Shown here one piece after another: positions 1-28,957 of a stretch of DNA of 28,957 nt. Every line of letters begins with the position of its first letter. Position 1 is the stretch's first letter. Under the pieces are notes generated by a model, which was not told the DNA's origin, did no database searches, and worked only from the letters and a program-made list of their open reading frames with translations. Origin of the DNA: a virus; IMG/VR virus record IMGVR_UViG_3300025896_000142, positions 1-28,957 of that record; one strand, 5' to 3'. Made by a program: the position numbers and the translations under genes.

Positions 1-104
1 AAGATGGGTAGTGCCTCTACCATAATAGGGTTATGCACAATTCTACCACCGAATCGTAGGTCGGCACAGTTAGTAACTCTGGGGATATTACAAAAGTTAC
101 AATC
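1..104. other. Non-coding start of tRNA region
   Basis: No reading frame or tRNA is recognisable here. A short hairpin (GGTAG / CTACC) lies near the left edge. The stretch probably belongs to the transcript of the tRNA group that starts at 105; its upstream part is outside the window. Confidence 0.4.
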
Positions 105-178
105 GGGGACTTAGCTCAGCTGGCTAGAGCGTCTGCCTTGCACGTAGAAGGTCGTGGGTTCGACTCCCACAGTCTCCA
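105..178 (+). tRNA. tRNA-Ala (TGC)
   Basis: Complete cloverleaf: 7-bp acceptor (GGGGACU/AGUCUCC with one G-U), D arm, anticodon stem UCUGC/GUAGA, loop CUUGCAC with anticodon UGC, and T arm GUGGG/CCCAC. Discriminator is A. CCA is not encoded, so the end must be added by a nucleotidyltransferase. Confidence 0.95.
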
Positions 179-179
179 C

Positions 180-215
180 AATAGAGTTAGTTTGGGCCCA
201 AAGAAAAACTCTATT
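180..215 (+). repeat. Inverted repeat between tRNAs
   Basis: AATAGAGTT (180-188) is complementary to AACTCTATT (207-215), and the loop contains the palindrome TTTGGGCCCAAA (191-202). A stable hairpin between two tRNAs is a likely processing signal in the polycistronic precursor, which is an inference. Confidence 0.6.
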
Positions 216-247
216 CGTTGAACCAATCGGAAGGTTGGGAATATGAA

Positions 248-319
248 AGTCATGAAGTATTTTAGGTAAGTATGCCCAACGGCCTTGGGTGGTTGCTGGT
301 TCAAATCCAGCCATGACTG
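248..319 (+). tRNA. tRNA-like gene, isotype unclear (apparent GGC)
   Basis: Acceptor AGUCAUG/CAUGACU pairs fully and the T arm GCUGG/CCAGC is canonical, with discriminator G. The D stem is weak. The anticodon stem GCCCA/UGGGU encloses loop ACGGCCU, which would give anticodon GGC but has C at position 33 instead of the near-universal U. The A1-U72/G73 end is unusual for Ala, so the isotype is unresolved; it may be a degenerate or modified-function tRNA. Confidence 0.65.
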
Positions 320-324
320 CAACT

Positions 325-443
325 AGCGGTATAGTTAAATGGTATAACAATGTTAAAAAAGTTAATCTGATTAAGAAGATTACGTTCAGCATTCAATATA
401 GCCTGTCACGCCATTGTTCTAGGTTCGATTCCTGGTGCCGCTG
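325..443 (+). tRNA. tRNA-Asp (GTC) interrupted by a 48-base insert
   Basis: Acceptor AGCGGUA (325-331) pairs with UGCCGCU (436-442), discriminator G443 as expected for Asp. D stem GUUA/UAAC and T stem CUAGG/CCUGG are normal. The loop CUGUCAC (403-409) carries anticodon GUC. The anticodon stem is perfect (AUGGC/GCCAU) only if 353-400 is removed, joining AUG (350-352) to GC (401-402), i.e. between positions 29 and 30. The insert has an A-run, a helix (363-368 with 377-382) and UUCAG (385-389). It is far shorter than group I or II introns. Confidence 0.9.
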
Positions 444-446
444 CAC

Positions 447-533
447 ATCTGGTAACCTCTGGTAATTTTATTTACAGAGAAAGGTTGAAAATACAGGTAT
501 TATAAATTCTATCTGGCAACCTCTGGTAATTTT
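447..533 (+). repeat. Direct repeat pair with hairpin
   Basis: A 23-base unit beginning ATCTGG and ending GGTAATTTT occurs at 447-469 and again at 511-533 with one difference. The first copy forms a hairpin with the following bases (CTCTGGTAA with TTTACAGAG). No gene is present in this spacer. Confidence 0.6.
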
Positions 534-605
534 GGGGAATACTTTAACTGGTTAGAAGACCACCTAAACGGGTGGTAGAGTAGGGTTCAAGTCCCTCTTC
601 CTCAA
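533..605 (+). tRNA. tRNA-like gene with aberrant anticodon loop
   Basis: Acceptor UGGGGAA/UUCCUCA, D stem CUUU/GAAG and a T arm (one U-C mismatch) are visible. The anticodon stem CCACC/GGUGG closes a loop of only six bases (UAAACG); opening one pair gives eight. No standard isotype can be assigned. It may be a decayed tRNA or one with non-standard decoding. Confidence 0.55.
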
Positions 606-756
606 CAACAAATATAAATGTTATGAAAAACACACAAAATGGGGGTGACCGCTTGGGAGCCCGTTAACAAGACAAGAACGTATAGAGTTACGTAAAAAGG
701 AAACTGGTAGCAGACATCAAAAAAAGCTAACCAAGTATTCCGATAATTTCAATGAA

Positions 757-1134
757 ATGTTCAACTTTTTCCTTAAATCAAATAGGAAAGGCATCCTATC
801 TTTTTGTGGTGCTATCGTAAAGGTTGAATTTGATGTCAACGAAACAGAAGGAAAATTCACATTCAGAAAATTTGACAATGGAGATTTTAGAAATGGAAAT
901 CCAATAGTATCAAGACATCCTAATATAGTAAAAGCTGTTATTGTAGGTAAAAAAGCTTGGGGTCTTTGGAGTGACCAATGGTCAGATGGGATTGTTGAAG
1001 GGACGTTTACACCTAAAGAAATCTTAGATATATTTGAAGATGAAGGAATTAAGATTCCTAGTTCACTGTTAACTGAGTTCTATAAAAGAATTGCTAAAAA
1101 ATTTGGAAAAAAACATAACACTTTGTTTGGATAA
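757..1134 (+). CDS. Conserved-looking phage protein, start uncertain
   Basis: A 125-residue protein if translation starts at this ATG; no function is recognised. It is mildly basic with a Lys-rich C-terminus and several aromatic residues around the middle. The same frame stays open upstream to 649 and that stretch reads like protein (rich in R, K, E and Q) but has no usual start codon. An ATG at 623 opens a different frame that ends at 665, so the true gene may begin at 623 with a frame change between 649 and 664, or an indel may have occurred. No promoter of the TTG-N20-TAnnTTTG type was found just upstream, so it is probably transcribed with the preceding tRNAs. Confidence 0.7.
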   Translation: MFNFFLKSNRKGILSFCGAIVKVEFDVNETEGKFTFRKFDNGDFRNGNPIVSRHPNIVKAVIVGKKAWGLWSDQWSDGIVEGTFTPKEILDIFEDEGIKIPSSLLTEFYKRIAKKFGKKHNTLFG

Positions 1135-1157
1135 TTAAAAACTAATTAGTACCTTTG
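1127..1157 (+). promoter_or_regulatory. Bacteroidota-type promoter
   Basis: TTG (1127-1129), 20 bases, TACCTTTG (1150-1157). The ATG of the next gene lies at 1162, so the transcript would be leaderless or nearly so. The -33 element overlaps the end of the previous gene. Confidence 0.85.
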
Positions 1158-1161
1158 TATC

Positions 1162-1317
1162 ATGAAAAGAAAGATATTACAATACATGGCCGATTACATC
1201 ATAGAGAAACTACGTATGGAAATTGGTGGAGACGAGAGAATATTCCAATTCTATTTAGAAATGGGAATGTGGTTAGACTTCTACGCTGTTCTTTGGTTTA
1301 ACATTGAACTAGAATAA
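1162..1317 (+). CDS. Small protein, 51 aa, unknown function
   Basis: A short frame from ATG 1162 to TAA 1315-1317 right after a strong promoter. The product starts MKRKILQYMADYI and has a Met/Trp/Phe-rich C-terminal half (MGMWLDFYAVLWFNIELE), which could be an amphipathic or membrane-touching helix. It resembles no family I can name. Support comes from the promoter, the good start context and an unbroken frame with codon use like its neighbours. Translation would be essentially leaderless. Confidence 0.65.
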   Translation: MKRKILQYMADYIIEKLRMEIGGDERIFQFYLEMGMWLDFYAVLWFNIELE

Positions 1318-1335
1318 AAAAAGTTTAAAAAAAAC

Positions 1336-1366
1336 TTGCACAAGTCAAAAACATTTCATACCTTTG
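1336..1366 (+). promoter_or_regulatory. Bacteroidota-type promoter
   Basis: TTG (1336-1338), 20 bases, TACCTTTG (1359-1366); drives the gene at 1414 after an A-rich leader of about 40 bases. Confidence 0.88.
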
Positions 1367-1413
1367 TAATCTGAAATATAAACAAAAACAATTTAATTTA
1401 AAACTAGAAAATT

Positions 1414-1761
1414 ATGAGTAAATTTGCACAAATGCTATCAGCGGATAGTTCAGCAACATTAGGAAACAGAGCGAAAAATTTAGCAGATGCTGCTGTATTG
1501 GAAGTTGAGTCTTTCATCGCAAACCTAAGAAAAGAGAAATTGCAATTGAATAGCAAGTTAAACGACTTGACTGACTTGGCTCCAGAGAATACTTACTCTC
1601 TACGTCCAGGTGGTGCTGATTTCAACGCTGCTAAATGGGTAGCTGAATTACACAGAACGAAAATGGATTTAGCTTTGAAAGAAGTTCAACTTGTGGAAGC
1701 ACAATCAATCTATGACGAATGGTTTGCTGACGAGGCTCCAGCTGCTAAAGCTAAGAAATAA
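1414..1761 (+). CDS. Small helical / coiled-coil protein
   Basis: A 115-residue protein that is almost entirely predicted helix, with Lys/Glu/Leu-rich heptad-like stretches and an Ala/Lys-rich tail. It has no signal peptide, membrane segment or catalytic motif. It has its own promoter and an A-rich leader, suggesting good expression. The stop codon overlaps the start of the next gene (TAATG), so the two are translationally coupled. Function is unknown; a structural or partner-binding role is only an inference from composition. Confidence 0.8.
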   Translation: MSKFAQMLSADSSATLGNRAKNLADAAVLEVESFIANLRKEKLQLNSKLNDLTDLAPENTYSLRPGGADFNAAKWVAELHRTKMDLALKEVQLVEAQSIYDEWFADEAPAAKAKK

Positions 1762-2246
1762 TGAACATACCAAAGGTTTATTTGGCGAAGTCTAATAGAG
1801 CTAACCCAGAAGTGGTTACTAGAGTTCGCCAAATTCTTAACCAATTTAATCTACAAACAGTTGAATTCAAAGGTGGTCAATATAGTCACAAAGACTTATT
1901 GGAATGTGAATACATGGTTGTAGTTCCAGATTTATCTAAAGAAGATGAATACATAATTGGTAAAGGATTATTTGAGCAAATAGGTGCTTTTAAATATAGG
2001 AAAGGTTATGAATCAATTTGTGTTATCAGTGATGAAGCCATAAATGTTAGAGATATTGATGAAATTGAAGCTTTTGATTCTGATGACAACTATATTGAAT
2101 ACGGTGCTATCTATTTTGAACATGGTAAAGGTTGTCCATTGGATAAAGTTCTAGAAGATTTATGTTTAGATAGAATTCCAAATCATGGCTACACTAACAC
2201 GAGTATTGGTTCGGAATACGAGTATATTTTAACTAGAAAAAGTTAA
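1761..2246 (+). CDS. Deoxyribosyltransferase/TIR-like Rossmannoid protein (tentative)
   Basis: A 161-residue protein whose opening KVYLAKSNRANPEVV resembles the first strand and loop of nucleoside 2-deoxyribosyltransferase-like folds. It is followed by a second strand ending in MVVVPD and then G-K-G-L-F-E-Q-I, which matches the place where that superfamily carries its G-x-x-x-E helix. Such proteins cleave or bind N-glycosidic nucleotides; phages use relatives in nucleotide salvage and possibly in sequestering NAD-derived signals. The fold call rests on pattern only. It overlaps the previous gene by one base and is followed by a promoter, so it ends its transcription unit. Confidence 0.6.
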   Translation: MNIPKVYLAKSNRANPEVVTRVRQILNQFNLQTVEFKGGQYSHKDLLECEYMVVVPDLSKEDEYIIGKGLFEQIGAFKYRKGYESICVISDEAINVRDIDEIEAFDSDDNYIEYGAIYFEHGKGCPLDKVLEDLCLDRIPNHGYTNTSIGSEYEYILTRKS

Positions 2247-2264
2247 AAAAAAGAATATAAAAGG

Positions 2265-2295
2265 TTGCATTTTTGAAAAAAGAATAGTATCTTTG
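2265..2295 (+). promoter_or_regulatory. Bacteroidota-type promoter
   Basis: TTG (2265-2267), 20 bases, TATCTTTG (2288-2295). It would transcribe the structured RNA that follows, tRNA-Phe and the genes from 2555. Confidence 0.85.
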
Positions 2296-2301
2296 TAGTA
2301 T

Positions 2302-2457
2302 AATTTGATAAGGTGTTTGAGAGGTGTAGTCAGATGGGAGTTCTTCCTCTTTATCGAAAGATAAATGAAACTTAGTACTGGCGGTGGTATCAAACACAGA
2401 GTCATAAGTCTCTGGGTCGGTAACGTCACGGAAAAAGACCTCGGATTCTATCCGAGG
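2302..2457 (+). ncRNA. Structured leader RNA upstream of tRNA-Phe
   Basis: No reading frame fits, but base pairing is extensive. GTGTTTGA (2313-2320) pairs with TCAAACAC (2390-2397); inside is TTTATC-GAAA-GATAAA (2350-2365), a GNRA-loop hairpin; then CAGAG/CTCTG; and the region ends with CCTCGGA/TCCGAGG (2439-2457). The 5' end is set by the promoter at 2288. It does not match a family I can name. It may be a stable small RNA, a tRNA-processing scaffold or a regulatory leader. Confidence 0.6.
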
Positions 2458-2462
2458 CAAAT

Positions 2463-2535
2463 GGTACCGTAGCTCAGTTGGTAGAGCACCGCACTGAAGA
2501 TGCGGGTGTCAGTGGTTCGAATCCACTCGGTACCA
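2463..2535 (+). tRNA. tRNA-Phe (GAA)
   Basis: Canonical cloverleaf: acceptor GGUACCG/CGGUACC, D stem GCUC/GAGC, anticodon stem CCGCA/UGCGG with loop CUGAAGA, T stem GUGG/CCAC region and A73. No CCA encoded. This uninterrupted gene is a useful contrast to the Asp and Asn loci. Confidence 0.96.
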
Positions 2536-2554
2536 CAAATAAATAAATTTAACT

Positions 2555-2728
2555 ATGGCAACAGCTGCAAAACGTTCTAGACAGTCTAGAGTAATCGAAA
2601 TGCTTGAGAAGCAATTAAAAAGTGGTGTGAAAACACAAAAGAAAACAACTGACGTTAAAGTTCCTTTGAATGATTCTGATATCAAAAGAATCAACAAAGA
2701 AATTGAAGTTCTAAAAAGTAGAACATAA
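2555..2728 (+). CDS. Small basic protein, 57 aa
   Basis: ATG 2555 to TAA 2726-2728, beginning MATAAKRSRQSRVIEMLEKQ. It is rich in Lys, Arg and Thr with a helical C-terminus. There is no recognised domain; its basic nature would allow nucleic-acid contact, which is only an inference. It lies 19 bases after tRNA-Phe and its stop overlaps the start of the following lipoprotein gene (TAATG), showing that it is part of a real translated unit. Confidence 0.75.
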   Translation: MATAAKRSRQSRVIEMLEKQLKSGVKTQKKTTDVKVPLNDSDIKRINKEIEVLKSRT

Positions 2729-3105
2729 TGAAAAAAATGTTTTTAGTAGCTTTGGTTTTAGGTTTAACTGTTTCATGTAAACCTAAAACTGAACAACCAA
2801 CAGAAAACGTTGAAACTTATGATGCTGTAATCCTTTCAGATTCTTCTGATTATCGCAATCATGACGAACCTACAGAAAGTGACGTTAAGGTATCTGATAA
2901 GCGTTATTGGTCAAGTTCTGAAACTAAATTACCAGTTGGTATTGTTGTAAATAAAGATTGTGCTAATTGTCGTTCAGAAAACGAAAAAGCAGATTTAAAA
3001 GACAACTACATTACAATCAAAAGGCCTAACGAAACGTTAACGATTAAAAAAGACATTGATGAGGATTTATTCTTAAATGTTGAAGTCGGAGATATCATAC
3101 AATAA
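2728..3105 (+). CDS. Putative lipoprotein
   Basis: A 125-residue protein with a classical lipoprotein signal: MKKMFLVALVLGLTVSC, with the lipobox cysteine at residue 17. The mature part starts KPKTEQ and is acidic and polar. A CANC motif lies in the middle, so two cysteines sit three apart. It would be exported and lipid-anchored in the cell envelope. Phage lipoproteins of this sort often alter the host surface or block superinfection, but nothing in this sequence proves a role. It is translationally coupled to the previous gene. Confidence 0.8.
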   Translation: MKKMFLVALVLGLTVSCKPKTEQPTENVETYDAVILSDSSDYRNHDEPTESDVKVSDKRYWSSSETKLPVGIVVNKDCANCRSENEKADLKDNYITIKRPNETLTIKKDIDEDLFLNVEVGDIIQ

Positions 3106-3127
3106 CATACGTAAAAAATAAATTCCA

Positions 3128-3490
3128 ATGAGAAGAAACGGAAACAGAACCATAAAGGTTAACAAAGCAGATTTAATTGCTAAGATTCAAGAAAATAAAG
3201 CACAACATATCGAAGCTTATACCAAAGCTGTTGTGGCTTATAAGAAAGAAGCTCTTAAACAATTAGCAGACATCACCAAAAAAGTTGAGGCTGGAGATAT
3301 GAAAGTTAGATTAGATTTAACTACACCAGTTGACAACAGCAATAACTATGACAAAATCATTGACATGTTCAATTGGGAAGTCGAAGATATCGTTGAATTA
3401 GAGCAATCTGAATTCAATGAATACGTCCAAGATGAGACCGATTTTGCAAGACATGCTTTGATGTCAAATAGTATGTATTTGGCTGGGTAA
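3128..3490 (+). CDS. Unknown phage protein, 120 aa
   Basis: A highly charged, helix-rich protein starting MRRNGNRTIKVNKADLIAKI. The N-terminal half is basic and the C-terminal half acidic, ending in a short aromatic-containing tail. No transmembrane segment or known motif is visible. The ATG sits about 20 bases after the previous stop in an A-rich context, so it is likely cotranscribed with the lipoprotein. No function assigned. Confidence 0.75.
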   Translation: MRRNGNRTIKVNKADLIAKIQENKAQHIEAYTKAVVAYKKEALKQLADITKKVEAGDMKVRLDLTTPVDNSNNYDKIIDMFNWEVEDIVELEQSEFNEYVQDETDFARHALMSNSMYLAG

Positions 3491-3549
3491 CAGCTTGATT
3501 TACAGCTTATTAAAAGTGTAAAAAAGATTAAAAAATATTCGTTTTTTAC

Positions 3550-3580
3550 TTGACTTTTAATGAAAAATGTAGTATCTTTG
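3550..3580 (+). promoter_or_regulatory. Bacteroidota-type promoter
   Basis: TTG (3550-3552), 20 bases, TATCTTTG (3573-3580); a long A-rich leader of about 55 bases precedes the ATG at 3640. Transcription would run on into the permuted tRNA region. Confidence 0.87.
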
Positions 3581-3639
3581 TAGTATAATAAGTAGAGAAT
3601 AATACAATAACATAATAAACAAAAAACAAAGAAAAAAAA

Positions 3640-4275
3640 ATGGCTGTAACAAAAACAACACCCGCAAAGAAAGCAAGTGCTAGCACAGAGATTGTCTTAG
3701 GACAAGCTGCACAACAAATTACTAAAGCAGTAAGCGAATTAGCTTCTGCAACTAACACAATCAATAAAATGGTTGAGCAAGCTGAAGAGTTAACTTTACA
3801 AGTTGCTAACAAAGAAGAAGCGATTATCTCTTTAGATGTAGCTTTTGCTGAAAAAGAGCGTCAATTGAAAGTTGATTTGGATTTAAGTTTCAGAGCTAAC
3901 ACAGACCGTGTTGTTAATGAGTACTTAACAAGCGTTGGGAAAACAGTAATTCCAGCTAGTGAATTGAATTCATTGCGTAAAGAGTTAGACGAGGCTAAGT
4001 CTAACACTGAAGGATTAATCAAAAGAGAAGTTGCTACGGTAGTTTCTAGCCTTAAATCTCAATATGAGAATGAAATCAAATTGATTCACTCAGAGAATAA
4101 AGCTATTGCCGCTGAAAACGCTGCTAAGATTGGTACTTTAGCTAACCAAAACGAGTTCTTAAGTGAACAAGTAACTAAATTGTATTTACAATTAGATGCT
4201 GAAAGAGCTGCTGGTATCGAAAGAGCTAAAGCTGGTTCAGTAGGGTCAATTAACGTTTCTGGACAAGGAAAATAA
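3640..4275 (+). CDS. Coiled-coil protein, 211 aa
   Basis: An Ala/Thr/Lys-rich N-terminus (about 25 residues) is followed by long helical segments with strong heptad character through most of the chain, ending in a Gly/Ser-rich tail. No membrane segment or catalytic residues are seen. Its own promoter and favourable leader suggest high expression. It may be a structural or scaffold-like phage protein. The stop codon lies only about 84 bases before the tRNA-Asn 3' half, so that RNA is probably made from the same transcript. Confidence 0.82.
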   Translation: MAVTKTTPAKKASASTEIVLGQAAQQITKAVSELASATNTINKMVEQAEELTLQVANKEEAIISLDVAFAEKERQLKVDLDLSFRANTDRVVNEYLTSVGKTVIPASELNSLRKELDEAKSNTEGLIKREVATVVSSLKSQYENEIKLIHSENKAIAAENAAKIGTLANQNEFLSEQVTKLYLQLDAERAAGIERAKAGSVGSINVSGQGK

Positions 4276-4358
4276 TACCCAAAAATATAAGCTAAGTGAG
4301 AAATTGCTTAGTTTGTAACTAGACATTGAAAGATTATTTCAGCAACAAAAAATCTATA
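4276..4358 (+). other. 3' part of the permuted tRNA intron
   Basis: Non-coding flank of the tRNA-Asn 3' half. It contains a hairpin (CTAAG/CTTAG), AAGATTA (4330-4336), UUCAG (4338-4342) and ends UCUAUA before the exon. The order helix strand, UUCAG, AU-rich, UAUA, exon is the same as in the tRNA-Asp insert. Confidence 0.65.
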
Positions 4359-4438
4359 GCCTGTTAAGCTCGTGATATGGGTTCGAATCCCATACTGTCC
4401 TAAGACACTGGGCGGTTAGCTTAATGGTTAGAGCACGA
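4359..4438 (+). tRNA. Circularly permuted tRNA-Asn (GTT)
   Basis: The 3' half comes first: 4359-4400 holds GC, loop CUGUUAA with anticodon GUU (4363-4365), stem GCUCG, T arm AUGGG/CCCAU and acceptor ACUGUCC. After a 9-base linker (4401-4409) the 5' half follows: 4410-4438 holds acceptor GGGCGGU, D stem GCUU/GAGC and CGA. Put in natural order, the acceptor pairs over 7 bp and the anticodon stem is perfect (CGA+GC with GCUCG), joined between positions 29 and 30. No alternative partner half exists on either side. The base after the acceptor is U, unlike the usual G73 of Asn. CCA is absent. Maturation would need joining of 4438 to 4359 and trimming of the linker. Confidence 0.9.
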
Positions 4439-4555
4439 AAAAGAAAAAAGTTAATCTTGTTGTCTAACATATTGTGTTGTTCCCTTGAGAAAGGAAAGCT
4501 AGAATTGTAATAGATGATGAATAGTCTACACAACATAGAGGCCTCAGCCTCAAAT
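4439..4555 (+). other. 5' part of the permuted tRNA intron and following spacer
   Basis: Directly follows the tRNA-Asn 5' half. Positions 4444-4457 are identical over 14 bases to 355-368 in the tRNA-Asp insert. TAATCTT (4452-4458) can pair with AAGATTA (4330-4336) on the far side of the gene. The rest holds a GAGA-loop hairpin (CCTT/AAGG) and GAGGC-CTCA-GCCTC before the next tRNA. Confidence 0.65.
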
Positions 4556-4672
4556 ACGGAGATAGCTTAGCGGTAAAGCACTCCCCCTTGAATTCGTGTG
4601 TAAGGTTCGATTCCTTTTCAGTTTGGAAGCATGACGTAGGGAGTTACGTAGGTTCGAATCCTACTCTTTGTA
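4556..4672 (+). tRNA. Interrupted tRNA, Gln-like (apparent TTG)
   Basis: Acceptor ACGGAGA (4556-4562) pairs with UCUUUGU (4665-4671); D stem GCUU/AAGC; anticodon stem CUCCC (4581-4585) with GGGAG (4639-4643); T stem GUAGG/CCUAC; A73. Between the anticodon stem strands lie 53 bases instead of 7. If the first seven (CCUUGAA) are the loop, the anticodon is UUG with an unusual C33, and 4593-4638 is a 46-base insert. The insert holds a hairpin AAGG-UUCGAUU-CCUU that mimics a T arm, followed at once by UUCAG, and ends GUA before G. Junction and isotype are uncertain. Confidence 0.7.
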
Positions 4673-4674
4673 CA

Positions 4675-4926
4675 AATAGGTTTGGTCCAATGTATGTATA
4701 TCATCCTTTGATGGTCTATGTAAAGCAGAATCAAATCAATTAATAAGAACATACTTACGTACTTTAAAGGTGGCTCCCTTTCCCACATTTGGGATATGAG
4801 AAAAAGAGCTGTGGCTGACCATGGGCATCTAATTGGGTTAAATCTCCAATGATACAGGGGGCGAAGTTGAAGGAACGATTTCTAGAATCAAGGTGAGATT
4901 CCCGTAAGTCACTGTTCTTAAAAAAT
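4675..4926 (+). other. Non-coding region, possible structured RNA
   Basis: No reading frame of note. Local hairpins are visible: CATC/GATG, CCCA-CATT-TGGG, ATTGG/CCAAT and GAATC/GATTC. G-rich single-stranded-looking segments lie between them. It follows a tRNA and ends at a terminator. It does not match tmRNA, SRP RNA or 6S RNA that I can recognise. Confidence 0.4.
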
Positions 4927-4960
4927 AAATGACATTATCTTTGGTAGTGTCATTTTTTTT
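4927..4960 (+). terminator. Intrinsic terminator with embedded promoter element
   Basis: AAATGACA (4927-4934) pairs with TGTCATTT (4948-4955), then a T-run. The loop contains the TTG (4941-4943) that is the -33 element of the promoter for the next gene. Confidence 0.85.
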
Positions 4961-4971
4961 ATGTACCTTTG
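4941..4971 (+). promoter_or_regulatory. Bacteroidota-type promoter
   Basis: TTG (4941-4943), 20 bases, TACCTTTG (4964-4971), interlocked with the terminator hairpin; ATG of the next gene at 4994. Confidence 0.88.
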
Positions 4972-4993
4972 TAATGTAAAAAAAAAATAAGTT

Positions 4994-5464
4994 ATGGGTT
5001 TAAATTACCAATTAGGTCAATATGTGGGTGAATATATCGTAGCGTTGCACTTGCCAACGTTAAGTACTGATATGTTAAAAACTAGAACAGTCATTGAAGT
5101 TTCTCCAGAAGAAACTGCTGAATGGGAAATATTAGAAAAACCACAACAAATTTATATTAGTAGCAAAGACCCAGACAGAGAAGCTAAAGAAGAAGCCAGA
5201 ACTAAACGTTTCTATGAAAACCGTAAATGGTATCATAAGCTAGAAGAAAAATATCTTAAAGAAACCATAGAAGTTCTAGTACCTAGAGTTGTACCTACCA
5301 ACATGAAACAATTTACTCAAGGAATCAAAGATACATTATGGGATTGTGATAGGTCACACTATAAAATTTTAGATGGATATTTCCAGCAAACAGACAGCTA
5401 CGCATGGTGTTCTAGAATTATTTTAACAAGACACATAGAAAAAATACCAGAAAAATTTGCATAA
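4994..5464 (+). CDS. Unknown phage protein, 156 aa
   Basis: A soluble, charged protein beginning MGLNYQLGQYVGEYIV. A Lys/Glu/Arg-rich central stretch of about 40 residues is probably helical; the C-terminus contains several aromatic residues and two cysteines (WDC, WCS). No family is recognised. It has its own promoter and the downstream promoter overlaps its stop codon, so it forms a one-gene unit just before the envelope module. Confidence 0.75.
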   Translation: MGLNYQLGQYVGEYIVALHLPTLSTDMLKTRTVIEVSPEETAEWEILEKPQQIYISSKDPDREAKEEARTKRFYENRKWYHKLEEKYLKETIEVLVPRVVPTNMKQFTQGIKDTLWDCDRSHYKILDGYFQQTDSYAWCSRIILTRHIEKIPEKFA

Positions 5465-14206: not shown

Positions 14207-14854
14207 ATGGGAAGAAAAAAAGCAAATATTCATTACATATATAAAACAACATGTAATGTAACAGGAAAATATTATGTTGGGATGCATTCAACATGTAATC
14301 TGGAAGATGGTTATATGGGAAGTGGGTTAAGATTAAGAAGAAGTATTAGGAAATATGGTGTAGAAAACCATACAAAAGAGATTCTAGAATATCTACCAAC
14401 AAGAGAAGAATTAGTTCTTAGAGAGATTGAGATTATCACAAAAGAATTGATTTCGGAAGATTTATGTATGAATTTAGTCGTTGGTGGTCAAGGTGGTTTT
14501 ATTAGTATTGAAGGAGCAACAAAAGGTGGTTTAACGTCTGGAAATATTCATAAAAATAAATTAATTAATGATGTTGAATATTTAAAGGAACGTCAAGAGA
14601 TTTCTTCAAAAACAATTAAAGAATCGTTTAAAAATGGTAAGATAAAATCATTTAATTGGAAAGGTTATCAACATACTGAAGAATCTAAAAAGTTAATGTC
14701 TAAATCGTCTAAAGGAATGGGTATTGGTGAAACAAACTCACAATATGGTACATGTTGGATAACAAATAATGGTATCAACAAAAAGATTAAAAAAGAAGAC
14801 CTTGAAACTTATCTAAATGAGGGTTGGTTAAAAGGAAGAAATTTAAAAAATTAG
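14207..14854 (+). CDS. GIY-YIG homing endonuclease (Seg-like)
   Basis: 215 residues. The N-terminal GIY-YIG nuclease domain (about 1-90) shows YIYKTTCNVTGKYYVGMH, the usual two-strand signature, followed by a conserved Arg/Glu region (REIEIITKEL). The C-terminal part contains a NUMOD3-like basic helix motif (YQHTEESKKLMSKSSKG, about 145-162) and a tail reading CWITNNGINKKI that likely binds DNA. It is free-standing, not within an intron, and lies between two tRNA-Thr genes. Such enzymes cut the matching site of a competitor genome and spread themselves with flanking markers. AT-richness is higher than for neighbouring coding genes, consistent with recent arrival. Confidence 0.9.
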   Translation: MGRKKANIHYIYKTTCNVTGKYYVGMHSTCNLEDGYMGSGLRLRRSIRKYGVENHTKEILEYLPTREELVLREIEIITKELISEDLCMNLVVGGQGGFISIEGATKGGLTSGNIHKNKLINDVEYLKERQEISSKTIKESFKNGKIKSFNWKGYQHTEESKKLMSKSSKGMGIGETNSQYGTCWITNNGINKKIKKEDLETYLNEGWLKGRNLKN

Positions 14855-16321: not shown

Positions 16322-16558
16322 CAAAGAAAGAGGATTCATCGCTGGCAACAGAGGAAGTTCACGACATCTCTCCAAGAGGTAGGAGATACCTACGAAGGCC
16401 TAAAAGTGGGACTGTCAACGAAGTATCGTTATTACTACCGCAACACGGGGTGCAACACATACAGTCTTAGCAAGGGAACTTGGATTGCTATGATAGACGG
16501 GTAGTGGCTTAGATAAATGATGAAATAAAACAGGAACGTGGCTACGCTCACTTTGTTA
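16319..16558 (+). ncRNA. rnpB: RNase P RNA (compact, phage-encoded)
   Basis: The catalytic RNA that matures tRNA 5' ends. The core elements appear in the right order. P1: 16319-16326 with 16551-16558, 8 bp. P2: UUCAUC (16335-16340) with GAUGAA (16519-16524). P3: CUG-GCAA-CAG (16342-16351). P4: 16356-16363 with 16537-16543, keeping the universally bulged U (16358). The GAGGAAG start of P4 strand, an AGCAAGG segment (16469-16475), a GGGUAG segment (16499-16504) and UUAGAUAAAUGAUG (from 16509) all match conserved bacterial RNase P positions, and ACAGGAACGUGGCU matches the conserved 3' P4 side. At about 240 bases it is far shorter than the usual 350-400. It ends three bases before a tRNA-Gly-like gene. 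Confidence 0.85.
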
Positions 16559-16561
16559 CAT

Positions 16562-16656
16562 GCAGAAATAGTTTAGTTGGTAAAACACCCAATCCCCAGG
16601 GACAAAAAGTCGTATAACTACGTGAAGATTCAGAGGTTCGATTCCTCTTTTCTGCT
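16562..16656 (+). tRNA. tRNA-Gly-like gene with extra internal sequence
   Basis: Acceptor GCAGAAA/UUUCUGC and discriminator U resemble the other Gly tRNAs; D stem GUUU/AAAC and T arm AGAGG/CCUCU are clear. In the middle, CCC/GGG encloses AAUCCCCA (possible anticodon CCC), giving only three anticodon-stem pairs. A further 28 bases lie before the T arm, with a hairpin CGUA-UAAC-UACG, CAAAAAGU and UUCAG. These resemble the insert motifs of tRNA-Asp and tRNA-Asn, so part may be an insert whose limits I cannot place. Confidence 0.65.
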
Positions 16657-18442: not shown

Positions 18443-19006
18443 ATGAATATTAAAAAAGAATTAAGAGCCGCTTTATTAAAAGAAGGCAAACACAAAACCC
18501 ATAAAAATGAATATGGGTGTCTTATGGTTTACTTAGATGTGGCCAATGAAGATTGGGATAAGTTACAAGATATGATTGATGACGAAGACTTATATGTTGA
18601 TAAAGAAGACCCAAGCTATGGTAGAGAAACTGAGCCGCATGCGACAATATTATTTGGTTTCCATGCAGATGTACCAGATGAAGATATAGAACAAGAAATT
18701 GATAAAGTAAAAGAACCTAAGATAGGGTTCAAAGGTATATCAGCATTTAGCAATGAAAAGTTTGATGTTTTAAAGTTTGACGTTGATAGTGATGACATGC
18801 ATAAAATGAATACAAAGTTTAAGAAATTTCCAAATACAAATAACTTTCCAGATTATCACCCACACGTAACAATTGCTTATTTGAAACCTAAAACGGCTGA
18901 CAAATACATAAAAAAAATGAAAGGTATGGAAGACATGCCAATCAAAGTTGATAACTTGGTTTATTCAAAACCAAATGGTGAAAAAAAGACATACGAATTA
19001 AATTAA
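18443..19006 (+). CDS. 2H phosphoesterase (LigT/cyclic phosphodiesterase-like)
   Basis: 187 residues with the two catalytic H-x-T motifs of the 2H superfamily: EPHATILFGFH (His near residue 66) and HPHVTIAYLK (His near 141), spaced normally for the fold. Members open or form 2',3'-cyclic phosphates, join tRNA halves by 2'-5' bonds in vitro (LigT) or, in phages, degrade cyclic oligonucleotide defence signals (Acb1). Either tRNA end processing or anti-CBASS activity would make sense here and the sequence does not decide. The N-terminus MNIKKELRAALLKEG resembles that of the previous protein, again with L-x-E before G. It ends at a bidirectional terminator. Confidence 0.85.
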   Translation: MNIKKELRAALLKEGKHKTHKNEYGCLMVYLDVANEDWDKLQDMIDDEDLYVDKEDPSYGRETEPHATILFGFHADVPDEDIEQEIDKVKEPKIGFKGISAFSNEKFDVLKFDVDSDDMHKMNTKFKKFPNTNNFPDYHPHVTIAYLKPKTADKYIKKMKGMEDMPIKVDNLVYSKPNGEKKTYELN

Positions 19007-25720: not shown

Positions 25721-25729
25721 GTACCTTTG
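25699..25729 (+). promoter_or_regulatory. Bacteroidota-type promoter
   Basis: TTG (25699-25701), 20 bases, TACCTTTG (25722-25729), interlocked with the terminator of the AAA+ gene. Confidence 0.9.
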
Positions 25730-25747
25730 TATTATAAAATTAGAAAC

Positions 25748-26731
25748 ATGAAAAAATTAAACGAAGCGGAAGCAATTGGAATTGTTATTGGTAGATTTGA
25801 AACTCCTTATCTACATGATGGTCATAAAGGGTTACTTAACCATGTAACCAGCAAACACTCAAATGTTATTGTATTTTTAGGTATCGCTAGAATCCAGAAT
25901 ACAAAAAGAAATCCATTAGACTTTCCTACAAGAAAGAAAATGATACAAAATATGTATCCAAATGTTATCGTTCTACCACAAGAAGATAATAGAAGTGATG
26001 AAAAATGGTCTACAAACCTAGACAACACTATCCGAACAATATTTCCAGATAAACCAGTTATCATCTATGGTAGCCGTGATTCTTTTATTCCTCACTATCA
26101 TGGTAGACATCATGTAGAAGAATTTACACCAATAGATTCACACAATGCTACAGAAATTAGAGAAGTTGCTGCTCAAACTGTTGAAGAAACTGAAGATTTT
26201 AGAGCGGGTGTAATCTATGGTATTGCAAAACAAAGACCAGTAACCTATGCAACCGTTGATGTTGTTGTAGCTAGAGAAGGACAAATCCTATTGGCTAGAA
26301 AGCCAGCAGAAACTCTTTTTAGATTTGTCGGTGGTTTTGTTGACCGTGACGATGTGAATTGGGAAATGGCTGCTCGTAGAGAGTTGATGGAAGAAACCAA
26401 ATTATCAGCATTGGGTATGACTTATATTTGTAGTCAAGCTGTTGAAGATTGGAGATATGCTAGAGAAGAATCTGGTATCATGACAACTTTGTTTATGACA
26501 TACGAATGGGACCAAATGGGTCGTCCAGAAGCTTCTGACGATATCGCTGAAGTTCGTTGGTTCGACTTAAAAGATTTGTTAAACGTAATCACAGAACCAA
26601 GTCAAGGTGATGGTCACATTCCAAAGGTTGATTACGGATTTAAAGTTGAAGATAAGATTGTTCCAGAACACGTTGAGTTAATGAAAACATTCTTGAAAAA
26701 AGTAGTAACTGATAAATTAATCAAATTCTAA
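25748..26731 (+). CDS. nadM: Bifunctional NMN adenylyltransferase/Nudix hydrolase
   Basis: 327 residues from ATG 25748; an in-frame TTG at 25727 lies in the promoter. The N-terminal NadM-type adenylyltransferase has GRF (15-17) and the H-x-G-H nucleotide site (23-26), with IDSHNATEIR as the ISSTxxR-like loop; it turns NMN plus ATP into NAD+. The C-terminal Nudix domain shows the Nudix box (GGFVDRDD, then ARRELMEET). With NAMPT encoded about 2.5 kb downstream, a two-step route nicotinamide to NMN to NAD+ is complete. It overlaps the next gene by one base. Confidence 0.94.
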   Translation: MKKLNEAEAIGIVIGRFETPYLHDGHKGLLNHVTSKHSNVIVFLGIARIQNTKRNPLDFPTRKKMIQNMYPNVIVLPQEDNRSDEKWSTNLDNTIRTIFPDKPVIIYGSRDSFIPHYHGRHHVEEFTPIDSHNATEIREVAAQTVEETEDFRAGVIYGIAKQRPVTYATVDVVVAREGQILLARKPAETLFRFVGGFVDRDDVNWEMAARRELMEETKLSALGMTYICSQAVEDWRYAREESGIMTTLFMTYEWDQMGRPEASDDIAEVRWFDLKDLLNVITEPSQGDGHIPKVDYGFKVEDKIVPEHVELMKTFLKKVVTDKLIKF

Positions 26732-28227
26732 TGAGAGATAAAATACTAGTATTTTTTATAGGTTGGACAATAGGTTTAGGTGTAATATCTTACATCGTTC
26801 AAAGCTTAGGTTTATGGTTATTAGCAACACTATTCCTAGTTGGGTTAATCGTAGTAATTCACGACATATTTCAAACCAAACACGCACTTCTTAAAAACTA
26901 TCCACTTGTCGCTAGACTTAGATGGTTATTTGAGTCGGAGCGTTCAAAGATACAACAATACTTTATTGAACACGACACCAACGGAACACCTTACAATCGT
27001 GAGAAACGTTCTGATGTCTATCAAAAAGCCAAGGGTGAAATCAATACAACACCCTTCGGAACTCAATTAGACGTATATAAAGAAGGTTACGAGTTCTTAG
27101 GTCACTCTATGTACCCTAAAGACATTTCATTGATTGCTGAGCCTCGTGTAACGATTGGTGGTGAAGACTGTCGACATCCTTATTCAGCTAGTATTTTTAA
27201 CATTAGTGCAATGAGCTACGGAGCGTTGTCAGATGCTGCTGTTAGAGCTTTGAATGGTGGTGCCAAGTTGGGTAATTTCTATCACAATACAGGTGAAGGT
27301 GGTGTTAGTCCTTATCATGTAGAGAATGGTGGGGATTTATGTTTCCAAATTGGAACTGGTTACTTTGGTGCTGGGAGAACAGTTGATGGTAGACGTGTAT
27401 TTTCAACACCTAGATTTTTTGATACTATATTAAATAATAAGAGTATCAAGATGGTAGAGATAAAATTATCACAAGGAGCCAAACCTGGTCATGGTGGTAT
27501 TCTCCCAGCATCTAAGAATACTCAAGAAATTGCTGACATACGTGGGGTAGAACCACATGTAGATGTAATGAGTCCCCCATACCATAGTGCATTTACTAAC
27601 CATAAAGAGTTATTAGAGTTCATAAGTGAGCTTAGAGACCTATCTGATGGGTTACCTATAGGTATAAAACTATGTCTAGGTGATGAAAGTGAGTTCATAT
27701 CGTTGGTATATACTATGAAAGAACTAAAAATATACCCAGATTTCATCACAATTGATGGTGGAGAGGGTGGAACAGGTGCTGCACCGATAGTTTTTACCAA
27801 TAATGTTGGTATGCCACTAGTAGATGCGTTGATTTTTGTTAATAAAACACTTAAACAATACGACTTGAGAGACAAAATTACTCTTATTGCATCTGGAAAA
27901 GCTAGCAACTCATTCGATATTATCAAATTATTGGCATTGGGTGCTGATATTGTTAACGCAGCACGTGCATTTATGCTTAGTTTAGGATGTATTCAAGCTA
28001 GAGAGTGTAATATGAACACATGTCCAGTAGGAATTGCTACTCAAAACAAGCATTTAATCAGTGCATTGAACCCAGAAGAGAAAAAAGTACGTGTTTTTAA
28101 CTATCATACAGCTGTAATCCATGAAATTCGTGAAGTTTTAGGTGCTATGGGGTTAACTAGTCCTAAAGAATTGAAACCTACTAGTGTTATTGTTAGAAAT
28201 AACAAGGGTACATTGAGTAATTATTAA
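26731..28227 (+). CDS. FMN-binding glutamate-synthase-family protein
   Basis: 498 residues. The first 45 residues carry two hydrophobic segments (membrane anchor), followed by a soluble linker and the central FMN-binding (alpha/beta) barrel of glutamate synthase: MSYGALSDAAVRALN, HNTGEGGVSPY, KPGHGGILPA, the GGEGGTGAAP loop and the C-x-x-N-T-C-P-V-G-I cysteine motif. No glutaminase domain is present, so it is the short single-domain form. The reaction of this type is not firmly known. Placement between two NAD+ synthesis genes suggests redox or NAD(P)H-linked function. Confidence 0.9.
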   Translation: MRDKILVFFIGWTIGLGVISYIVQSLGLWLLATLFLVGLIVVIHDIFQTKHALLKNYPLVARLRWLFESERSKIQQYFIEHDTNGTPYNREKRSDVYQKAKGEINTTPFGTQLDVYKEGYEFLGHSMYPKDISLIAEPRVTIGGEDCRHPYSASIFNISAMSYGALSDAAVRALNGGAKLGNFYHNTGEGGVSPYHVENGGDLCFQIGTGYFGAGRTVDGRRVFSTPRFFDTILNNKSIKMVEIKLSQGAKPGHGGILPASKNTQEIADIRGVEPHVDVMSPPYHSAFTNHKELLEFISELRDLSDGLPIGIKLCLGDESEFISLVYTMKELKIYPDFITIDGGEGGTGAAPIVFTNNVGMPLVDALIFVNKTLKQYDLRDKITLIASGKASNSFDIIKLLALGADIVNAARAFMLSLGCIQARECNMNTCPVGIATQNKHLISALNPEEKKVRVFNYHTAVIHEIREVLGAMGLTSPKELKPTSVIVRNNKGTLSNY

Positions 28228-28245
28228 ATAAAACATTGGATATAT

Positions 28246-28276
28246 TTGGTTATTAAAAATATTAGTAGTACCTTTG
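28246..28276 (+). promoter_or_regulatory. Bacteroidota-type promoter
   Basis: TTG (28246-28248), 20 bases, TACCTTTG (28269-28276), A-rich leader to ATG 28307. Confidence 0.9.
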
Positions 28277-28306
28277 TATCAAATAAGAACAAAAAATTTT
28301 AACAAT

Positions 28307-28957
28307 ATGAGTTTACAAACACAATTAGCTACGAATTTAGCAACTGCCATTCAAAATAAAGATTGGTCTAGTATTGAAGGTATGCAAAAATACCTTACTA
28401 AAATCATCACTAAGCCAGATAACTTGGTCTTATGTTCCGATGGTTACAAATATTCACACCACAAATTCTATGGTTCTGAAATGACCAAGATGGTTTCATA
28501 TATGGAATCAAGAGGTGGTAAATTTTCAGAAACCGTATTCTATGGTTTACAGATTGTACTTAAACAATACTTAGAGGGTATTGCTATCACAAAAGAAGAA
28601 GTTGATGAAGCTAACGAAATGTTAGGTAATGAATTAGGTATCTTTGGTCGTGATGGTGTATTCGATAGAAGTAAGTTTGATTACATCGTTGATAAATATG
28701 ATGGGAAATTACCTATCAGCATCAAGGCGGTTCCAGAAGGAACTATCGTTAACACTAAAAATGTGTTATTCGTAATCGAAAGTCTTGACCCAGAATGTGC
28801 ATGGTTGACCAACTTCTTAGAGTCAATATTGCTTCAAGTTTGGTATCCGATTACCGTTGCTTCACTTTCTAGAGAAGTAAGAAAAATCGTTACTGCCGCA
28901 TTCGTAAAAGGAACAGCGTATGATGCTGGTCTTATCGACTTCCTAGTTGATTTCGTA
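28307..28957 (+). CDS. nadV: Nicotinamide phosphoribosyltransferase (partial, 3' end outside)
   Basis: The frame runs off the window; 217 residues are present, under half of a typical enzyme of about 480. Family features: the N-terminal LCSDGYKYSHHKFYG, SYMESRGG, the FYGLQIVLK helix, IKAVPEGTIVN and the TNFLESILLQVWYP segment. The enzyme joins nicotinamide to PRPP to make NMN, the substrate of NadM upstream. It has its own promoter. Together they form the NAD+ rebuilding route known from phages (NAMPT plus NMNAT). Confidence 0.94.
   Translation, partial: MSLQTQLATNLATAIQNKDWSSIEGMQKYLTKIITKPDNLVLCSDGYKYSHHKFYGSEMTKMVSYMESRGGKFSETVFYGLQIVLKQYLEGIAITKEEVDEANEMLGNELGIFGRDGVFDRSKFDYIVDKYDGKLPISIKAVPEGTIVNTKNVLFVIESLDPECAWLTNFLESILLQVWYPITVASLSREVRKIVTAAFVKGTAYDAGLIDFLVDFV

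Follow-up and report, generated by a model that had tools for sequence, protein, structure and literature searches.

What is the 48-base stretch that interrupts a tRNA-Asp(GTC) gene at positions 325-443 of a 28,957-bp IMG/VR virus fragment (the window, meaning the whole stretch of DNA analysed here)? In Rfam, the interval is matched by the full RF00005 model at 42.3 bits (cut-off 29), and the alignment places a large insert within the anticodon arm. When all joins in the arm were tried, 352/401 alone restored five Watson-Crick pairs together with U33 and the GTC anticodon (rejoined arm ATG/GC CUGUCAC GCCAU, slash at the join), a score equalled by 15 of 5000 shuffled controls. This confirms the first-pass annotation, which had read the gene as split at position 29/30 and repaired by removal of 353-400. 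The spliced 71-mer folds with z = -2.8 and the unspliced 119-mer with z = -0.7; the tRNA fold was not recovered from precursors by single-sequence folding.

We consider it likely that the insert belongs to a phage-borne class of tiny tRNA introns lying outside every established intron class tested, with splicing inferred in the absence of RNA data. The tRNA introns so far known from bacteria and phages are group I, group II or unexplained cases. Group I introns carry a P3-P8 catalytic core of about 200 nt or more, and group II introns have domains V/VI and the ends GUGYG...AY. The insert is 48 nt long, its ends read TTAAA...ATA, and no Rfam group I or group II intron match was obtained in window positions 1-5000 at E<=1. 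Membership of either group was rejected on these grounds, and the earlier exclusion of both from the sequence alone stands. Group I introns in tRNA and phage genes are likewise RNA inserts in phage genes, and the permuted tRNA arrangement described below recalls the permuted intron-exon construct, but the inserts of the present family total only 41-53 nt, far below the group I core.

The insert contains a core made up of an A-rich strand, a helix strand, a GNNA-like loop, the returning helix strand and UUCNGCA. The same core is found in the tRNA genes of about 50 IMG/VR viral contigs (counts include near-duplicates) and, unrecognised there, in the cultured phages KVP40, Aeh1, phiAS5, CBB, GAP32 and APT65; the genes bearing it in other phages code for tRNA-Glu, Pro/Leu, Lys, Asn and Asp. 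IMG/VR pattern scans returned it in Glu, Pro/Leu and Asp tRNA genes, and more interrupted Asp and Glu genes lie in contigs reaching 364 kb. A model built on the family, R1, re-found the pattern-scan members within 1.08 Mb; the APT65, phiAS5, CBB and GAP32 members came from a search of named phages, and a second model, R2, built to cover some relatives that the narrower R1 missed, added those of KVP40 and Aeh1. R2 matches the tRNA-Asp intron at 353-395 with 44.6 bits and E 1e-9, although this sequence was itself in the R2 training set; both models give only approximate E-values, and their training sequences are bound to match. In KVP40, one intron sits inside the annotated 'tRNA-Pseudo-5' (R2 match 181143-181181), while the CBB copies are annotated tRNA-OTHER and tRNA-Phe; without its insert the latter reads as tRNA-Lys(TTT). 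Cultured phages with copies annotated as pseudo-tRNAs thus belong to the family. Searching a bacterial genome collection with an intron plus T-arm pattern gave 79 matches, none recognised as a core-bearing interrupted tRNA; matches to a census pattern of the CBB/phiAS5 type were mostly due to chance, with only KVP40 and phiAS5 themselves falling in tRNAs; and phage 121Q gave no R2 match.

Several lines of evidence indicate that the core structure is real. The six-pair helix, examined in 23 cis sequences, is paired to 93.5% and shows 29 changes affecting both sides; its covariation score is 0.611 against 0.182 for shuffled alignments (0 of 500 as high) and at most 0.147 for slid helices. A pattern of the core alone, without any tRNA letters, matched 18 contigs representing 15 distinct sequences, all 15 of which lie in tRNA genes by eye and 12 by a fixed rule with a background of 0.7%. 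Rejoining yields a perfect anticodon stem in 14 of 18 genes, although the stems differ in sequence. The best-join selection favours good fits, and the control with cross-joined anticodon stems is weak because CG at 27-28 is common to many genes. Recurring with covariation in the tRNA genes of many phages, the core takes the insert beyond chance, and the tRNA-Asp copy satisfies the structural criteria of the family: A-rich strand, covarying helix, GNNA-like loop, UUCNGCA and a position within a tRNA gene. In the loop-class introns (the Pro/Leu group, AS5-b, Aeh1-b and KVP40-a), U33 is often missing from the rejoined loops; here the splice sites are unresolved, or some copies have decayed.

The neighbouring tRNA-Asn meets our criterion for a permuted gene, its 3' half lying upstream of its 5' half and the halves being complementary. 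The elements between 4329 and 4459 follow one another as AAAGATTA-TTTCAGCA, Asn 3' half, linker, 5' half, A-rich strand and TAATCTTG, and the outer segments on either side represent the tRNA-Asp intron core (AAAAAAGTTAATCT ... AGATTACGTTCAGCA), split into its two strands by opening of the hairpin loop. Because a loop-opened version of the same core flanks the permuted gene, the link that the first-pass annotation had drawn between the two genes is stronger than it could have known. Its further point, that both are joined at the identical position, is compatible with the data but not forced by them: the Asn gene fits 28/29 and 29/30 equally well, and 28/29 is favoured in most relatives. Pattern scans recovered the permuted form in about 27 IMG/VR contigs, and in the flank helix of permuted genes both sides have changed at two positions. 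Within permuted units, the 5' and 3' acceptor strands form 6 or 7 of 7 pairs in 20 of 21 cases, compared with 7.8% for mismatched units; since the 1-7 strand was taken as the best-fitting one directly ahead of the D-arm, the own-partner score is inflated. CBB and GAP32 carry a tRNA-Lys in normal order with an intron at 28/29 (CG/AGC CUUUUAA GCUCG) that closely resembles the permuted genes; as these phages hold a linear counterpart, the comparison suggests, by inference, that the permuted form was derived from a linear interrupted gene through duplication and partial loss. The family, its conserved core, the helix covariation, the restoration of anticodon stems and the acceptor covariation in permuted genes are demonstrated by these comparisons.

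Table 1. Positions of the interrupted tRNA-Asp gene, the permuted tRNA-Asn gene and their core elements in the window
Feature	Position	Strand	Basis or remark
tRNA-Asp 5' exon, positions 1-29	325..352	+	RF00005 alignment; best join
tRNA-Asp 48-nt intron	353..400	+	Unique best excision; R2 match 353-395
tRNA-Asp intron core, A-rich 5' strand TTAAAAAAGT	353..362	+	Conserved in alignments A1 and A3
tRNA-Asp intron core helix, 5' strand TAATCT	363..368	+	Covariation in A3
tRNA-Asp intron hairpin loop GATTAAGA	369..376	+	GNNA tetraloop in many relatives; opening point in permuted relatives
tRNA-Asp intron core helix, 3' strand AGATTA	377..382	+	Covariation in A3
tRNA-Asp intron conserved CGTTCAGCA	383..391	+	Family consensus NNUUCNGCA
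tRNA-Asp intron 3' tail TTCAATATA	392..400	+	Ends ATA/GC (slash at the join), like tRNA-Glu of G002
tRNA-Asp 3' exon, positions 30-73	401..443	+	RF00005 alignment; best join
Permuted tRNA-Asn, opened core 3' strand AAAGATTA-TTTCAGCA	4329..4344	+	
Permuted tRNA-Asn(GTT) 3' half, positions 30-72	4359..4400	+	Start possibly 4358
Permuted tRNA-Asn linker, 9 nt, between tRNA 3' end and 5' end	4401..4409	+	
Permuted tRNA-Asn 5' half, positions 1-29	4410..4438	+	End possibly 4437
Permuted tRNA-Asn, opened core 5' strand: A-rich AAAAGAAAAAAGT + TAATCTTG	4439..4459	+	Pairs with 4329-4336; covaries in relatives

In three contigs a second permuted tRNA gene follows immediately after the first (L153:4870-5140, L158:7150-7330 and L185). 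These second genes have a CAATCTT/AAGATTG flank helix and Ser- or Tyr-like anticodons, and the 5' flank of the first gene could pair with the 3' flank of the second as well. L226, L248 and L030 may hold permuted tRNA genes in tandem, whose linker is very short and whose units are separated by a closed core hairpin.

Small tRNA introns and permuted tRNA genes invite comparison with the archaeal-type bulge-helix-bulge (BHB) introns, which are defined by a 4-bp central helix between the intron start and the 3' exon and by two 3-nt bulges. Archaea and algae possess both small tRNA introns and circularly permuted tRNA genes, the BHB motif of the latter being cut by the splicing endonuclease (Soma 2014, PMC3978253), and the phage genes share with these the 3' half before the 5' half, the short linker and a presumed circular intermediate. 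However, the central helix is absent from all 10 genes tested (no register gives more than 3 of the 4 pairs, and the strict one gives 1-2), and an EndA homolog (PF01974) was found in none of 17 records, many of them fragments, so that a BHB origin has next to nothing in its favour. Another reading treats the elements as decayed or non-tRNA in nature, that is, as interrupted pseudogenes that are never spliced or as Y-RNA-like (YrlA) RNAs with a tRNA-like module. KVP40 copies are indeed annotated as pseudo-tRNAs, and intact genes stand alongside in G004, a 233-kb sister phage in which most proteins common to the window are >90% identical. G004 carries three intact tRNA-Asn and two uninterrupted tRNA-Asp genes, and because of the latter the interrupted gene may be dispensable. 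The first-pass annotation would have taken an intact tRNA-Asp, with no constraint on the interrupted copy, as a refutation; the intact copies exist, but constraint across the family is clear. YrlA, a bacterial Y RNA (RF02553), also has a T-arm before a D-arm in one RNA with paired ends, and the permuted genes match it weakly. Unlike YrlA, they possess an intact anticodon arm and cis relatives that are not Y RNAs; their 24-41 bits fall below the gathering score of 69 and no Ro60 (TROVE) protein was found in 17 records, and YrlA membership was rejected on these last two counts. With helix, acceptor and anticodon stems covarying across phages, we regard decay or a non-tRNA identity as improbable.

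The nearest prior notice is a 2019 paper on Lak megaphages, within a literature search limited to open papers. In the accessible part of that article, inserts in large-phage tRNA genes are likewise described, as 'enigmatic' and without classification, and the authors state that to their knowledge phage tRNA introns had not been reported earlier; a shared core, covariation and permuted genes are not described in that part (Devoto et al. 2019, PMC6784885). Lak-A1 gave a single weak R2 match (E 0.014) outside any recognisable tRNA, and therefore the Lak introns may be of another kind. As far as the available portion of the CBB paper goes, 31 of its 33 tRNAs are treated as functional and tRNA introns are not discussed.

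That excision and exon joining do occur is, in our judgement and from sequence alone, very probable, and how excision happens is itself inferred. In the transcript, the tRNA arms would form, with the 3' strand holding the anticodon stem, and the intron would bulge out as the A-rich strand, a short hairpin and the UUCNGCA strand. Cuts at both exon ends would then be followed by exon joining. The chemistry that we favour is core-guided cleavage, carried out either by the RNA or by a nuclease not yet identified, which would leave 2',3'-cyclic-phosphate and 5'-OH ends; these could be healed and sealed by phage tRNA-repair enzymes (a T4 Rnl1-type ligase and a kinase-CPDase) or by a host ligase. In permuted genes, the core would be assembled from the sequence preceding the 3' half and that following the 5' half; since the opened core strands flank the gene, joining would yield a circular RNA, from which RNase P and a 3'-end enzyme might remove the short linker.

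A more specific form of this best explanation is splicing by proteins only, in which a phage nuclease recognises the core and phage healing and sealing follow as in fungal Trl1; we give it a nearly even chance. G004 encodes RlaP, CCA-transferase and a PARP in addition to the T4 Rnl1-type ligase and a fusion of a kinase with a fungal-Trl1-type CPDase; Rnl1 is present in many other intron carriers, and CPDase occurs in 8 of 11 large permuted-type phages as against 0 of 9 other large contigs. However, three of these nine (G028, G029 and G033) carry cis introns, Rnl1 was not found in APT65, Lak-A1, G014, G029 and G033, and it is present in 121Q, which had no R2 match, so that neither Rnl1 nor CPDase could be retained as a marker of intron carriers. 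Rnl1, moreover, has a known tRNA-repair role that requires no introns. Because the distribution of ligase and CPDase does not consistently follow that of the introns, the repair enzymes are plausible sealers and not established ones, and a pathway in which a phage nuclease cuts and phage proteins then seal remains a serious possibility that we hesitate to call probable. No candidate splicing endonuclease was identified in the carriers, and RtcB, Tpt1 and an EndA-type endonuclease were all absent from the carrier records searched. The lack of a shared nuclease, together with carriers without Rnl1, would also fit a self-splicing or self-cleaving RNA, the core being a miniature ribozyme that cleaves without protein, and so would the conservation of the unpaired A-rich strand and UUCNGCA, which extends over phages infecting Vibrio, Aeromonas, enterobacteria and probably Bacteroidota. 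Against this, the conserved core amounts to only ~30 nt, the distance from core to splice site varies (about 7-14 nt), and the intron regions scanned gave no match to any Rfam ribozyme family. We find a ribozyme rather unlikely, and the broader proposal of a new class of miniature self-excising RNAs with a ~30-nt core, acting in linear and permuted tRNAs across jumbo and T4-like phages, somewhat more doubtful still.

A compact family with its own core would add an intron class, would show that permuted tRNA genes exist in bacterial viruses and would suggest a natural use of phage RNA ligases beyond damage repair.

GIY-YIG/NUMOD3-like genes, probably for homing endonucleases, lie among the tRNA genes (window 14207-14854; G004 180660-181331), one of them in G004 directly upstream of the interrupted tRNA-Asp. 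Window 18443-19006 encodes a 2H phosphoesterase (LigT/Acb1-like), a possible RNA-repair or anti-CBASS protein.

Further unusual RNA elements were noted in the same region and its relatives. Odd tRNAs flank the Asp gene (window 248-319 and 533-606), one with a compressed anticodon loop and one with an 8-nt loop (ARAGORN 'aaac'). At 4556-4672, a tRNA gene called by ARAGORN as Ser(tga) with an intron, and conserved in G004 (L148:15994-16110), has an anticodon-loop insert of ~44-50 nt that contains a T-arm-like sequence and is without the family core. A tRNA match at 16562-16656, also conserved in G004 (L148:4295-4389), has a lengthy additional segment separating D-arm from T-arm. A weak match to RNase P RNA (RNaseP_arch, 25.4 bits, E 1e-4, against a gathering score of 84) at window 16324-16553 was not repeated in three related loci at E<=0.01; by our reading, its AGATAAATGAT stretch resembles a conserved RNase P segment. 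In L304 and L306, a GGATTA/TAATCC helix encloses a tRNA-like element whose hairpins resemble the D-, anticodon and T-arms and whose anticodons are TCA or TGA. Finally, the end of the window (25727-28957) carries NAD salvage genes, coding for a NadM-Nudix-like protein and a nicotinamide phosphoribosyltransferase.
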